A DNA stretch of 42,216 nucleotides from Gammaproteobacteria bacterium (GTDB taxonomy: Bacteria; Pseudomonadota; Gammaproteobacteria; Steroidobacterales; GCA-2729495), in assembly GCA_030066665.1 (NCBI GenBank), contig JASJBD010000055.1, forward strand, positions 1-42,216, read 5' to 3'. The notes below the pieces were generated by a model. The model worked only from the letters and a program-made list of their open reading frames with translations. It did no database searches and was not told where the DNA came from. Positions 11,216 through 39,913 of this stretch are shown piece after piece. Position numbers and translations under genes: made by a program. How positions within the stretch are numbered: position 1 is the stretch's first letter; each line of letters opens with the position of its first letter.

Positions 11216-11243
11216 AAGAAAACCCGGCACGAGGCCGGGTCTT
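11216..11243 (-). terminator. Rho-independent terminator (constant-loop family, copy 1)
   Basis: On the minus strand a 7-bp stem ACCCGGC/GCCGGGT with loop CTCGT is followed by a T-rich run (TTTTCTT). It lies 26 bp after the stop of the gene ending at 11269 and belongs to the same hairpin family found at 35107, 38588 and 39883. Confidence 0.85.
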
Positions 11244-11268
11244 CATACGAGCATTGATTAGCGGAATC

Positions 11269-35029: not shown

Positions 35030-35106
35030 ATGGAGTCACTGGCCGGATAGACAATGGCTACCAGCTGCTCACCGTGTGCTCACCACGCCCGCGGCGATAT
35101 TGGCTA

Positions 35107-35135
35107 AAGAAAACCCGGCACGAGGCCGGGTCTTC
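35107..35135 (-). terminator. Rho-independent terminator (constant-loop family, copy 2)
   Basis: On the minus strand, stem ACCCGGC/GCCGGGT with loop CTCGT is followed by TTTTCTTT. It lies 25 bp after the stop of the beta-helix gene ending at 35160 and is identical in the core to the copy at 11216. Confidence 0.85.
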
Positions 35136-35159: not shown

Positions 35160-36692
35160 CTATTCGAAGACGATGTTATCGACCCCGAGATCCCAGCCAC
35201 GTGTGAAATGGACTGTCACGGTTGTCGCAGGCAGGCTCCAATCAGTATCGATCTCGATAAGACTGCCGGTCGGAACAAACTGTGAGTAGGATTGCCCAGC
35301 ATCGTCGCTCAGGGTCAGAGTCCCAGACCGCGGCGTGAATACCTGCATCCGTCGCAAGATTCTGGGGCCTTCGGCGAACGAGAAGTTACGGGATTGCCCC
35401 GCGCCTGAGGAGAAGAAAATATGGTTCGTCGGGTTGACGTTGTATGGCCCTTCCCAACGCCATTGGTTTGTACCGAAGTCGATTCCCTCGAAAACGCCGT
35501 TCAGGAAGCTGAATGAACTACCGGGCGGCGTCGGGTCATCGAAATCGATCAGCGTCGGTTCGCTTGGCAGTGGTGGGCATAGCGGCTCGGGCGCGCAATT
35601 GTCGGGCGTGTTGCTCTGGATTATCGAATCTTCACTTACCGATAGTCCAGCAGCGGCAGCACCCACAAACACGCCGCCACCTTCGATTCCCGCGGAGTTT
35701 CCCGTAATTCGGCTCCCGTTTAGGAGGGCCTGCGATCCTGATTCAAGAGAGATTCCACCTCCCGTTTCCTCGGCCGAGTTTCCCACGATGTGGCTACCGC
35801 GAATATTGAATTCTGCTTGAGATCCAATTAGGCCACCGCCTCGCTCGCTAGAATTTCCTTGAACGACACTGTTGTCGATATCTACAACGACCCCCCCAGC
35901 GCCCGCGGAGATTCCGCCTGCGTTGTATCCGATAAAGCTGTTGACGACACGTGTCGTTGTCTGAGTTCCAACGAGGATTCCCACCCCACCGTTGTTCTGT
36001 ACGCTGCTATCGATGACGTCAAGCGGACCTCGGCGCGAAAGGGCTATCCCAGCGCGACCATTATTCCTAATCGTTGTGCCAACCACGCTGATAGTACCCC
36101 CCTCTGTCGCGCTCTCGATTCCGTCGCGTGCATTATTCTCGATGATGCTGTTTATTGCGGTGACGTCAAATTGTATAAACGCCCCTCTTATGCCACTGCC
36201 AAGACTGTTTCGGACCACGGAATTGATGATTCTGCCTACGCGGCCCGACTGCAAATAGACGCCGTCAGTCGCGCTGTTTTCAACGATGCAGTCAATCAGT
36301 GTAAGGTTCACCCAATCAGATCTAATGCCACCACCCGATACGGTCAGGTTTTGTAGCGTTAACGTTGAAATGCCGGATTGCCCAGCAAGCACGGTCAGGA
36401 CGCGTCCCACAATTGCAACTTGCTCCGCACCGTAGCCTTCAATTGTCAGGTTCTTCGCAGGAATCTCGAGGTCACCTAGCGTTAGCTGAAAAGTAGCGGG
36501 CAGAAGACTGCGATCAAACACAATCACGTCACCGTCTACCGCGTCCTCAACCGCCTCCCGGAGCGACAGAACGCCATCTGACGGATTAATAACGTCCGCA
36601 GTCGTTGTAACCGTGAGTGTGGCTGCAGCTCCCGGAACCGCGTATGCAAAAAAGAAAATGGCAAGAAGAGACATGGTCAGACTACGGCGCAT
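35160..36692 (-). CDS. Secreted right-handed beta-helix protein with C-terminal beta-sandwich (paralogue A)
   Basis: This is a 510-residue exported protein. A signal peptide (MSLLAIFFFAYAVPGAAA) leads into a CSLREA-like start (VTTTADVINPSDGVLSLREA, with Leu in place of the usual Cys). About twelve beta-helix turns with NS/NN ladders follow (e.g. VVRNSLGSGIRGAF, SSVQNNGGVGILVG). A Cys-containing linker (DNCAPEPLCPPLP) leads to a ~130-residue domain (IDFDD, then WRWEGPYNVNPTNHIFF and RGWDLGVDNIVF) of galactose-binding-like type. ATG 36692 is chosen for the signal peptide and upstream GGGGGA; the longer frame to 36899 overlaps the end of the neighbour and is not protein-like. Adhesion or glycan binding is inferred. 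Confidence 0.75.
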   Translation of the reverse strand: MRRSLTMSLLAIFFFAYAVPGAAATLTVTTTADVINPSDGVLSLREAVEDAVDGDVIVFDRSLLPATFQLTLGDLEIPAKNLTIEGYGAEQVAIVGRVLTVLAGQSGISTLTLQNLTVSGGGIRSDWVNLTLIDCIVENSATDGVYLQSGRVGRIINSVVRNSLGSGIRGAFIQFDVTAINSIIENNARDGIESATEGGTISVVGTTIRNNGRAGIALSRRGPLDVIDSSVQNNGGVGILVGTQTTTRVVNSFIGYNAGGISAGAGGVVVDIDNSVVQGNSSERGGGLIGSQAEFNIRGSHIVGNSAEETGGGISLESGSQALLNGSRITGNSAGIEGGGVFVGAAAAGLSVSEDSIIQSNTPDNCAPEPLCPPLPSEPTLIDFDDPTPPGSSFSFLNGVFEGIDFGTNQWRWEGPYNVNPTNHIFFSSGAGQSRNFSFAEGPRILRRMQVFTPRSGTLTLSDDAGQSYSQFVPTGSLIEIDTDWSLPATTVTVHFTRGWDLGVDNIVFE

Positions 36693-36817
36693 GATTTCAT
36701 CCCCCGAAAGAATACTTTTCGTTTGTTGTCGTAAGGCGTATTGGCAAGCTGGAGCCCTTGTCGATCTGTCGGGTCGGTTGACGCGCCAAGGCCACAAGAA
36801 ATGGCCACACTGTCGCT

Positions 36818-38380
36818 TCACTCGTAGACGATATTGTCGACTCCCAGGTCCCAGCCTCTCGTGAACTGGACCGTGACAGTCATGGCGGGCAGCGTCCAAC
36901 CGGTCTCGATCTCAATCAGGCTGCCGGTCGTTATGGGTTTTGAATAAGTCTGGCCGGCATCATCGGTCAGCGTCAGGGTGCCCGCGCGTGGCGAAAACAC
37001 CTGCATCCCACGCAGAATCCGTGGCCCACCGTCAAACGAGAAACTACGCGATTGTCCCGCGCCGGATGCGAAGAAGATGTGATTCGTTGGGTTGACGTTG
37101 TACGCACCTTCCCAACGCCATTGGTTGGCGCCAAAGTTGATGCCTTCAAAAACGCCGTTCAGGAAACTGAACGAGGAGCCCAGTGGCTTGGGGTCGTCGA
37201 AATCAACCAGCGTCGGTTCGCTTGGCAGTGGTGGGCATAGCGGCTCGGGCGCGCAGTTGTCGGGCGTGTTGCTTTGAATGGTCGAGTCCGAACTTACTGT
37301 GAGTTCAGAGATCGTAGCCGCAACGAAGGCGCCTCCGCCCTGATTGCCAGCCTGATTTCCAGAAACCCGGCTTCCGAAAAGCGACGCCGTGGCACCGCCG
37401 CCGCTGAGGTAAATGCCGCCGCCCTCATCGTCAGCACTGTTGCCAAGTATCTGACTGCCCCTGACCACAAAGTCAGCTGCGACTCCACCGAACAGGCCAC
37501 CACCGACTTGTGCCGAGTTGCCCTGCATAATGCTGTTCACAATTTCGACGAAAACACCGCCGCCGGCTCCAACTATTCCAGTCTCGCCGTTGTAGCTGAT
37601 GAAGCTGTTGACGATTCTTCCGCTCGTTAGTGTCCCCAAATTCACTCCTGAATCGTCATTGTTGTGTATGTTGCTATCAACAACGGTGAGAGTACCGCCC
37701 CGGCGGCTAAATATGCCATCGCCGCCATTGTTTCGTACCGTAGATCCAATTATCAGTGTTGTATCAATTCCGTCACCACCCAGCGATACTCCGTCAAGCG
37801 CGTTGTTTTCTATCACGCTATTGATGATAGTCACATCCTTGCCAAGAAAATCGTTTCGAATACCGGCACCAAGATTGTTGCGGATTGTAGTGCCCACAAT
37901 AGTTGCTGTTTCCGGCGACGAGCCAATCGACTCTATTCCGTGAGTATTGCTGTTTTCCACAATGCAATCGGAAATTTCGAGATTGAAGACTGGCGTCGCC
38001 AATAACCCACCGCCTGAAAGTGTCAAACTACGAAGAGCGATGGTTATCCGACCAGGAACCCCCGCAGGAGAATTATCAAGCAAAATCCGACCGTCAATAG
38101 TGATTTGGTCCGCGCCATAACCTTCGATGGTCAGATTCTTTCGTGTGAGAATGAGGTCACCAAGGGTCAGCTGAACAACTCCCGGCAATAGACTGCGATC
38201 AAACACGACAACGTCACCGTCTGCAGCATCCGCAACGGCCTCCCGCAATGACAAAACACCATCGGACGGGTCAACAGCATCCGTAGTAGTCGTAACAGTG
38301 AGCGTGGCGGCATTCGCTGGTATCGCGGTTCCAAATGAGATAACCGCAATCAAGGCGGCAAAAAGGCTGCTGTGCTTCAT
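36818..38380 (-). CDS. Secreted right-handed beta-helix protein with C-terminal beta-sandwich (paralogue B)
   Basis: This is a 520-residue exported protein, tandem paralogue of the 35160-36692 gene, with the same four parts. These are a signal peptide (LFAALIAVISFGTAIPANA), the CSLREA-like entry (VTTTTDAVDPSDGVLSLREA), NN/NS-laddered beta-helix turns and the Cys linker plus C-terminal beta-sandwich domain (RGWDLGVDNIVY). The two genes are 125 bp apart and same-strand. The C-terminal third is far more similar than the helix turns, and a 48-bp block of the linker is nucleotide-identical (37208-37255). The ATG at 38380 follows GGGGGA. The role is probably surface binding. Confidence 0.75.
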   Translation of the reverse strand: MKHSSLFAALIAVISFGTAIPANAATLTVTTTTDAVDPSDGVLSLREAVADAADGDVVVFDRSLLPGVVQLTLGDLILTRKNLTIEGYGADQITIDGRILLDNSPAGVPGRITIALRSLTLSGGGLLATPVFNLEISDCIVENSNTHGIESIGSSPETATIVGTTIRNNLGAGIRNDFLGKDVTIINSVIENNALDGVSLGGDGIDTTLIIGSTVRNNGGDGIFSRRGGTLTVVDSNIHNNDDSGVNLGTLTSGRIVNSFISYNGETGIVGAGGGVFVEIVNSIMQGNSAQVGGGLFGGVAADFVVRGSQILGNSADDEGGGIYLSGGGATASLFGSRVSGNQAGNQGGGAFVAATISELTVSSDSTIQSNTPDNCAPEPLCPPLPSEPTLVDFDDPKPLGSSFSFLNGVFEGINFGANQWRWEGAYNVNPTNHIFFASGAGQSRSFSFDGGPRILRGMQVFSPRAGTLTLTDDAGQTYSKPITTGSLIEIETGWTLPAMTVTVQFTRGWDLGVDNIVYE

Positions 38381-38587
38381 TAGATTCCCCCGGACCAGCT
38401 GTTGTTCGTCTTGTAATGCTTATTGGTGGCCAGAACCTTCGTATTCTTCTTGAGAGATCGGCACGCGAAAGGGGCGCAAAACGCCCATATACATAACCAT
38501 CCCGCCGATGGGCTTTGTGTGTCAATAAGTAGATGTCGCGGCAGGGCCGTTATGTCAAAACAGGCCTAGATAAGCAGCTGTCGAATA

Positions 38588-38616
38588 TAGAAAACCCGGC
38601 ACGCAGCCGGGTCTTC
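38588..38616 (-). terminator. Rho-independent terminator (constant-loop family, copy 3)
   Basis: On the minus strand, stem ACCCGGC/GCCGGGT with loop TGCGT is followed by TTTTCTAT. It lies 34 bp after the end of the interrupted YegP-type gene. Confidence 0.8.
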
Positions 38617-38649
38617 TCTTGCAGGGCTTTGACCACAAGTGGGTCGAGG

Positions 38650-38982
38650 CTAGGTCAGATCTTTTACCTTGGCCTCCGCTGCACTCTTGCCGACGCTCTT
38701 GATGCCATTTCGTGCGGCGGCGTCCGTCTTGTACATCTGGCTAGCGCGAATTACCTGATGATTGGCCGCTTTCAAGACGAAGTGCGCTTTGCCGTTCTTG
38801 GCTGTCTTCACTTCAAACCGATCCGTGCTACCAGCATTCTTCTGGACCGACGTAATCCCGTTCATGCAGGCGCGTCTCGTTGTGTACCCCTCGCTTGCCA
38901 AAATCGGCTAGCCGTTTGCGGCTTTGAGCCGAAAGCGAAATTAACCTCTCTTGTCCTTGTAGACTTCAAACTGTGCTGGCAT
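38650..38982 (-). pseudogene. yegP: yegP (DUF1508) gene interrupted by two in-frame stops
   Basis: Read from the ATG at 38982, the frame encodes 110 codons, exactly the length I recall for the E. coli YegP protein, with two tandem DUF1508 repeats. The first is QFEVYKDKRG-stop-FRFRLKAANG-stop-PILASEGY; the second is RFEVKTAKNGKAHFVLKAAN. The stops are TAA at codon 14 (38941-38943) and TAG at codon 25 (38908-38910). Both fall where homologues have Gln or Glu, and each is one C-to-T change away from CAA or CAG. The remaining frame and the terminator are intact. Internal restart at a TTG (38901) would give only the second half. Recent inactivation is the simplest reading. Confidence 0.85.
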
Positions 38983-39052
38983 TTATGTGTCTCTTAGTTT
39001 GGGCACGCCGGAAGCCGAAGATATCAAGGTTTGGCGTAATTCCTCCCGGCAA

Positions 39053-39082
39053 AGAAAAACCCCGCCACGAGGGCGGGGCAAA
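39053..39082 (-). terminator. Rho-independent terminator (constant loop, different stem)
   Basis: On the minus strand, stem CCCCGCC/GGCGGGG with loop CTCGT is followed by TTTTTCTTT, 50 bp after the gene ending at 39132. The stem differs from the other copies, but the loop is the same. Confidence 0.85.
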
Positions 39083-39131
39083 TCGTGAGCTATTTCAGAA
39101 TTTCTCGGTCAGAAACGTTGTACCCGCCATG

Positions 39132-39740
39132 TCACGGCATCGGCTGGGAAGGCTCGTCATCGGAGCGCAACATATCTTCCACAATTGGACATTTCGCAAC
39201 CCTCTCGACGGCGGGCGGTGGAAAATATCCTGAGGGAATCGAATCGAAGAGGTCTGCCGGGCAGGCTCGTTCTAATCCAACAGTAAGGAACGGCACGCTA
39301 CAAATCCAAGGATCTTCCACTGTGTCTCGGGCGCAACCGAAGTAACTCTGTGGGCACAGACTCGTTACCCCTACGTCGCCCTCCGCAGCAATGTACGGCT
39401 CCTCATTTGCGCCACAAAATACGGCGTAGCTCGTGTCAACCAAAGTGAAGCACTGATTGCTTTGTCCGGGCCATAACAAGGTGCCCTGGACCTTAATGAT
39501 TGGGCCAAGCCTTTCCCCCAGTCTCTTGCCCTCACAATTAAAAAGACCATCAGGGTCTTTGGTGAGCCGTGGTCGTTGAGCCTCCAAGGCCATTTCATTC
39601 CACGCAATCGCACTATCGATATCCGAGACCGGCTCGTCGGTTACCCCCAAGTGCTTGCCGCCATGAGCAGGCGGCATACCCGAAATAAGAGCAACGACAA
39701 ATAAGGTCAGTGAAACCGACTTGAATAGATAGGCAACCAT
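39132..39740 (-). CDS. Cys-rich secreted protein of unknown function
   Basis: This is a 202-residue exported protein. A signal peptide (LFKSVSLTLFVVALISG) precedes a hydrophilic body with eight cysteines (in FNCEG, NQCFT, VFCGA, SLCPQ, FGCARD, WICS, RACPAD and AKCPI), suggesting four disulphides. The ATG at 39740 follows GGGAGGGAG, a very strong ribosome-binding site. A terminator follows at 39053. No family is recognised. Confidence 0.6.
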   Translation of the reverse strand: MVAYLFKSVSLTLFVVALISGMPPAHGGKHLGVTDEPVSDIDSAIAWNEMALEAQRPRLTKDPDGLFNCEGKRLGERLGPIIKVQGTLLWPGQSNQCFTLVDTSYAVFCGANEEPYIAAEGDVGVTSLCPQSYFGCARDTVEDPWICSVPFLTVGLERACPADLFDSIPSGYFPPPAVERVAKCPIVEDMLRSDDEPSQPMP

Positions 39741-39882: not shown

Positions 39883-39913
39883 AAAAGAAAACCCGGCACG
39901 CGGCCGGGTCTTC
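39883..39913 (-). terminator. Rho-independent terminator (constant-loop family, copy 4)
   Basis: On the minus strand, stem ACCCGGC/GCCGGGT with loop CGCGT is followed by TTTTCTTTTGG. It lies just after the PEP-CTERM tail (39932) and is the first terminator seen downstream of the BNR gene. Confidence 0.85.

Follow-up and report, generated by a model that had tools for sequence, protein, structure and literature searches.

A yegP-like reading frame broken by two in-frame stop codons in a gammaproteobacterial draft genome

Stop codons inside an otherwise well-preserved reading frame may mean that the gene has been lost, that the assembly is wrong, or that the organism reads these codons as amino acids. 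This question is raised by a yegP-like reading frame on the minus strand at positions 38650–38982 of the window (the whole stretch of DNA analysed, 42,216 nucleotides), which is the whole of contig C151 in a draft genome of 3.64 Mb, 171 contigs and 87% completeness.

The yegP-like frame and its two stop codons

Translation of this region gives 110 codons and a terminal stop, with a TAA at codon 14 (38941–38943, minus strand) and a TAG at codon 25 (38908–38910, minus strand), so that the two-domain frame is not uninterrupted. Both DUF1508 domains were found in this one frame, at 70.7 and 67.5 bits and with "1 TAG, 1 TAA" inside; each exceeds the curated cut-off of the Pfam DUF1508 model (PF07411), which is 22 bits, and the read-through frame as a whole scores 142.2 bits. 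The read-through protein also aligns nearly end to end, over residues 3–110, with two YegP proteins of solved structure, 2k49 and 2k8e. To judge from these comparisons, the frame is far beyond a chance frame. It resembles the YegP / UPF0339 family (PF07411, DUF1508; PDB 2k8e and 2k49) in its two tandem DUF1508 domains, its equal length and the aligned residues, and differs from it in the two in-frame stops and in an Arg at codon 79. The translation and the domain matches thus bear out the first-pass annotation, which had described a 110-codon YegP frame carrying these two stops, and the translation likewise confirms that there is no frameshift and that the terminator is intact. A profile search of the genome gave no second DUF1508 match.

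The codons that occupy the two sites in other genes were examined in an alignment of 35 homologues, kept out of 40 rows after five of at most 100 residues had been dropped (L069, L023, L076, L086 and L092; L069 is a piece of the window locus itself). Codon 14 corresponds to Glu in 16, Gln in 10, Lys in 4, Ala in 2 and Asn in 1 of the 33 homologues with a letter there, and codon 25 to Glu in 14, Gln in 12, Lys in 5, and Gly, Arg, Ser and Ala in one each of the 35. The stops had been said to stand at expected Gln positions; they do stand at Glu/Gln sites, but these are not Gln sites proper, Glu being slightly the commoner residue at both. The nearest relative, of the same genus (G003), has GAA at codon 14 and GAG at codon 25, while CAG occurs at codon 25 in several relatives and CAA/CAG are also found among more distant ones. 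A C-to-T step from CAA/CAG, proposed as deamination-type damage, would be possible on paper, but it is unsupported, since the change from the codons of the nearest relative would be G-to-T. The comparison suggests G-to-T from GAA/GAG at both stops, with the ancestral codons unsettled, above all that of codon 25.

The nature of the sites says little by itself. Of all the single steps by which codons of the 35 homologues could become TAA or TAG, about one third (411/1244) start from Glu or Gln codons, and in the gene of the nearest relative 8 of 32 do so. The position of the stops at Glu/Gln sites is therefore weak evidence of anything, and the locus serves as a reminder that such a position argues only weakly for recoding. 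According to a 2021 survey in eLife (PMC8629427), there is a tendency in pseudogenes for certain codons to become stops by a single step.

Relatives and constraint outside the stops

DUF1508 was found in 9 of 60 genomes of the genus, family and order, in 2 of the 5 genus genomes searched and in 2 of 36 other family genomes; the first two counts include the source genome, as does that of a class-wide draw, in which 33 of 369 genomes had a match. This patchy presence, 2/5 in the genus and 2/36 in the rest of the family, indicates that yegP is dispensable in the group. The order-level and class-wide draws overlap by the source genome and G042, which leaves 39 other genomes with a match. None of these 39 has a stop inside the DUF1508 match, and the source genome is the sole case among the 40; in-frame stops thus occur here where the relatives have sense codons.

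The nearest relative is the intact yegP of G003, with 72% protein identity, whose coding sequence is identical to one in contig JANQPY010000047.1. No closer yegP record or sister strain was found in genome_contigs (6 relatives confirmed; best other match 72%), and viral_contigs held no viral relative. When the whole window was compared by blastn with 14 kb around the G003 gene, the gene alone was matched. As a separate observation, a yegP relative of a Magnetospirillum MAG (L023:3001–3337) has its matches in two different frames and looks frameshifted.

Apart from the stops and one Gly-to-Arg change, the protein shows hardly any sign of decay. Its differences from G003 number 28, 10 and 65 at codon positions 1, 2 and 3, and dN is 0.18 with dS saturated, codons 14 and 25 being excluded from the count. 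In a tree of 36 proteins its end branch is 0.17, as against 0.29 for the intact G003 protein, and it ranks 8th of 36 by a leave-one-out conservation score. The sole residue that goes against a strongly conserved column is the Arg at codon 79 (38744–38746, minus strand), where 30 of the 35 homologues have Gly, 4 have Ala and 1 has Cys; judged from the alignment, this change reads as a sign of slight further decay. The statement that there is no other decay was accordingly nearly right: the branch is short and the conservation score normal, with Gly79Arg as the exception. Almost all the divergence thus took place under constraint, and the break, if it is real, must be recent. Taking nonsense to make up 37 of 990 single changes, and supposing 10 neutral changes, the probability of at least one further stop is 0.32 and that of at least two is 0.05. 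That two nonsense changes should come with hardly any other decay is a mild surprise, and this combination leaves room for a consensus error.

The same data bear on the antisense frame at 38533–38997 (plus strand, 154 codons), which is open and in codon register with yegP. If it were a real gene, the sense stops might be tolerated for that reason, a reading to which we give almost no weight. It was rejected because it has no Pfam match and because the in-register frame is open in 15 of the 35 homologues, as expected of a by-product; the 28/10/65 distribution, moreover, is characteristic of a sense frame under selection.

The genetic code and a second interrupted gene

A reading of TAA and TAG as Gln (or Glu), through an altered code or through a suppressor tRNA, would agree with the location of both stops at Glu/Gln sites and with the constraint on the remaining protein, and in the former respect the locus resembles stop-codon reassignment. 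The release factors, the terminators, the tRNA genes found and the uup site all argue against it. The source genome carries two RF-1-domain genes, both free of stops, which we take from their motifs to be prfA and prfB. The 238 long frames in 437 kb of the source genome end in TAA (39), TAG (62) and TGA (137), so that both codons in question are in use as terminators. The search for tRNA-Gln suppressors proposed in the first-pass annotation gave no stop-reading anticodon among the 39 tRNA genes detected, a set whose incompleteness (it lacks tRNA-Phe and comes from an 87%-complete draft) makes this absence no proof; the tRNA-Gln genes found have the anticodons TTG and CTG. ABC-domain matches are without a stop in 43 of 44 cases.

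The remaining ABC-domain match belongs to a uup-like ABC-F gene, 635 codons long, whose otherwise intact frame carries a lone in-frame TAA at residue 150 (L101:1699–1701, minus strand, corresponding to contig C71 of the source genome near 17500; the same place is seen in L116). The best NCBIfam model is Uup, at a score under the curated cut-off (820 of 900 bits). Residue 150 is Ala, Pro or Gly in the 11 closest rows and Asp or Pro in eight more distant ABC-F rows. As Gln or Glu occurs there in 0 of the 19 aligned relatives, this TAA gives no support for Gln. The closest relatives have no internal stop, and the codon may mark another recent loss or else another consensus error. In addition, the known bacterial reassignments of stop codons involve UGA, according to the eLife survey (PMC8629427).

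Genome-wide recoding was rejected on the release factors, the tRNA genes, the terminator use, the ABC-domain matches and the uup site, and the source bacterium in all likelihood uses the standard code. The suggestion that TAA/TAG are read through as Gln is contradicted by the same findings, and we consider the chance that these codons are read as Gln or Glu in this organism to be very small. Read-through at a useful rate, with Gln, Glu or another residue inserted and full-length YegP made under selection, would fit the unaccelerated YegP branch; it too appears extremely improbable, and recoding or read-through as a whole is close to excluded. If true, read-through of TAA/TAG alongside two retained release factors would matter.

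Scans of coding potential were used to look for other interrupted genes. The first version was far too permissive, with 200 candidates in the source genome, and a codon-usage version gave 7 candidates there and 6 in G003 and missed both known cases. The third version, for which uup was the positive control, gave 15 candidates in 437 kb of the source genome and 13 in 314 kb of G003; it missed yegP, as short genes escape it. Among the candidates in the source genome, uup was the one clear interruption. The other 14, judged by eye alone, were terminators followed by a gene in the same frame, or had a weak downstream signal. In the same genome, two partial ABC-domain matches lie on opposite strands at the extreme end of contig C106 (77841–78105; L102), perhaps an assembly fold-back.

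Readings of the stops and features around the gene

Taken together, the comparisons make it probable that yegP was recently inactivated here and is now a nonsense pseudogene in a standard-code bacterium. The gene is intact in a relative of the same genus, where both sites hold sense codons, which argues for recent loss, and outside the stops the protein is as well conserved as its intact counterparts; very recent inactivation, which the first-pass annotation had put forward, remains the best reading. Both stops would have arisen in this lineage after the split from the nearest relative, translation would now end after 13 residues and leave no working first domain, and the remainder of the gene would have had little time to decay. 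The locus shares with nonsense pseudogenes of bacterial drafts the stops that are one base step away from sense codons, the otherwise intact frame, the intact relatives and the dispensability of the gene; the pairing of two stops with scarcely any further decay is less typical of them, and poses the choice between mutation and error. The alternative that the stops are absent from the organism, and come from a low-coverage or strain-mixed draft assembly, is the less likely of the two but deserves to be taken seriously. The genome is a draft in 171 contigs, the rest of yegP shows no relaxed constraint, and uup, intact in the aligned relatives, also has one nonsense codon, so that yegP is not the only gene affected by loss, or error; furthermore, Cooley and Wright (2024; PMC11017572) report that internal-stop pseudogenes in bacterial assemblies are in many cases errors. 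Such an error would nevertheless be unusual, since the two substitutions, which are 33 bases apart, both fall in the first domain and no indel accompanies them, and a draft with one clear further case in 437 kb is not riddled with in-frame stops of this kind, as far as a scan blind to short genes can tell.

The loss may also be partial, the first domain being gone and the second surviving as a short protein started at the ATG of codon 40 (or the TTG of codon 28). The candidate internal frame from this ATG (38650–38865, minus strand) has 71 codons and covers the whole second DUF1508 domain, at 81.8 bits. Single-domain relatives are known (3bid, 64 residues; 6q2z, 60; 2k7i, 83), and frames of about 60 residues occur at L076, L086 and L092. 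By eye, however, no good ribosome-binding site precedes codon 40, intact two-domain relatives often have a Met at this position, so that it was not gained for a short protein, and Gly79Arg, the one conspicuous missense change, falls in the second domain. A surviving short protein thus seems improbable, and the loss of the whole gene is the reading that we prefer. A broken yegP would then matter little, being one more small, patchily kept gene that was lost.

The flanks of the gene were also inspected. A sigma-70-like promoter was not found in 38400–39200, which says little, and the region of the two stops shows no remarkable RNA fold (z −1.14). A weak Shine-Dalgarno-like stretch, AAGAGA, was noted by eye before the first ATG (38990–38995, minus strand). 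Downstream of yegP lies a G+C-rich, terminator-like inverted repeat (38594–38612), which the scan flagged on the plus strand only. The G+C-rich hairpin sequence there (38589–38616) recurs at 39886–39913, 35105–35135 and 11217–11244 with 90–96% identity, and is perhaps a repeated terminator or a small repeat. Finally, two neighbouring overlapping frames of 579 and 520 codons are found in the window at 35160–38380 (minus strand), each with a right-handed beta-helix/NosD-like region.
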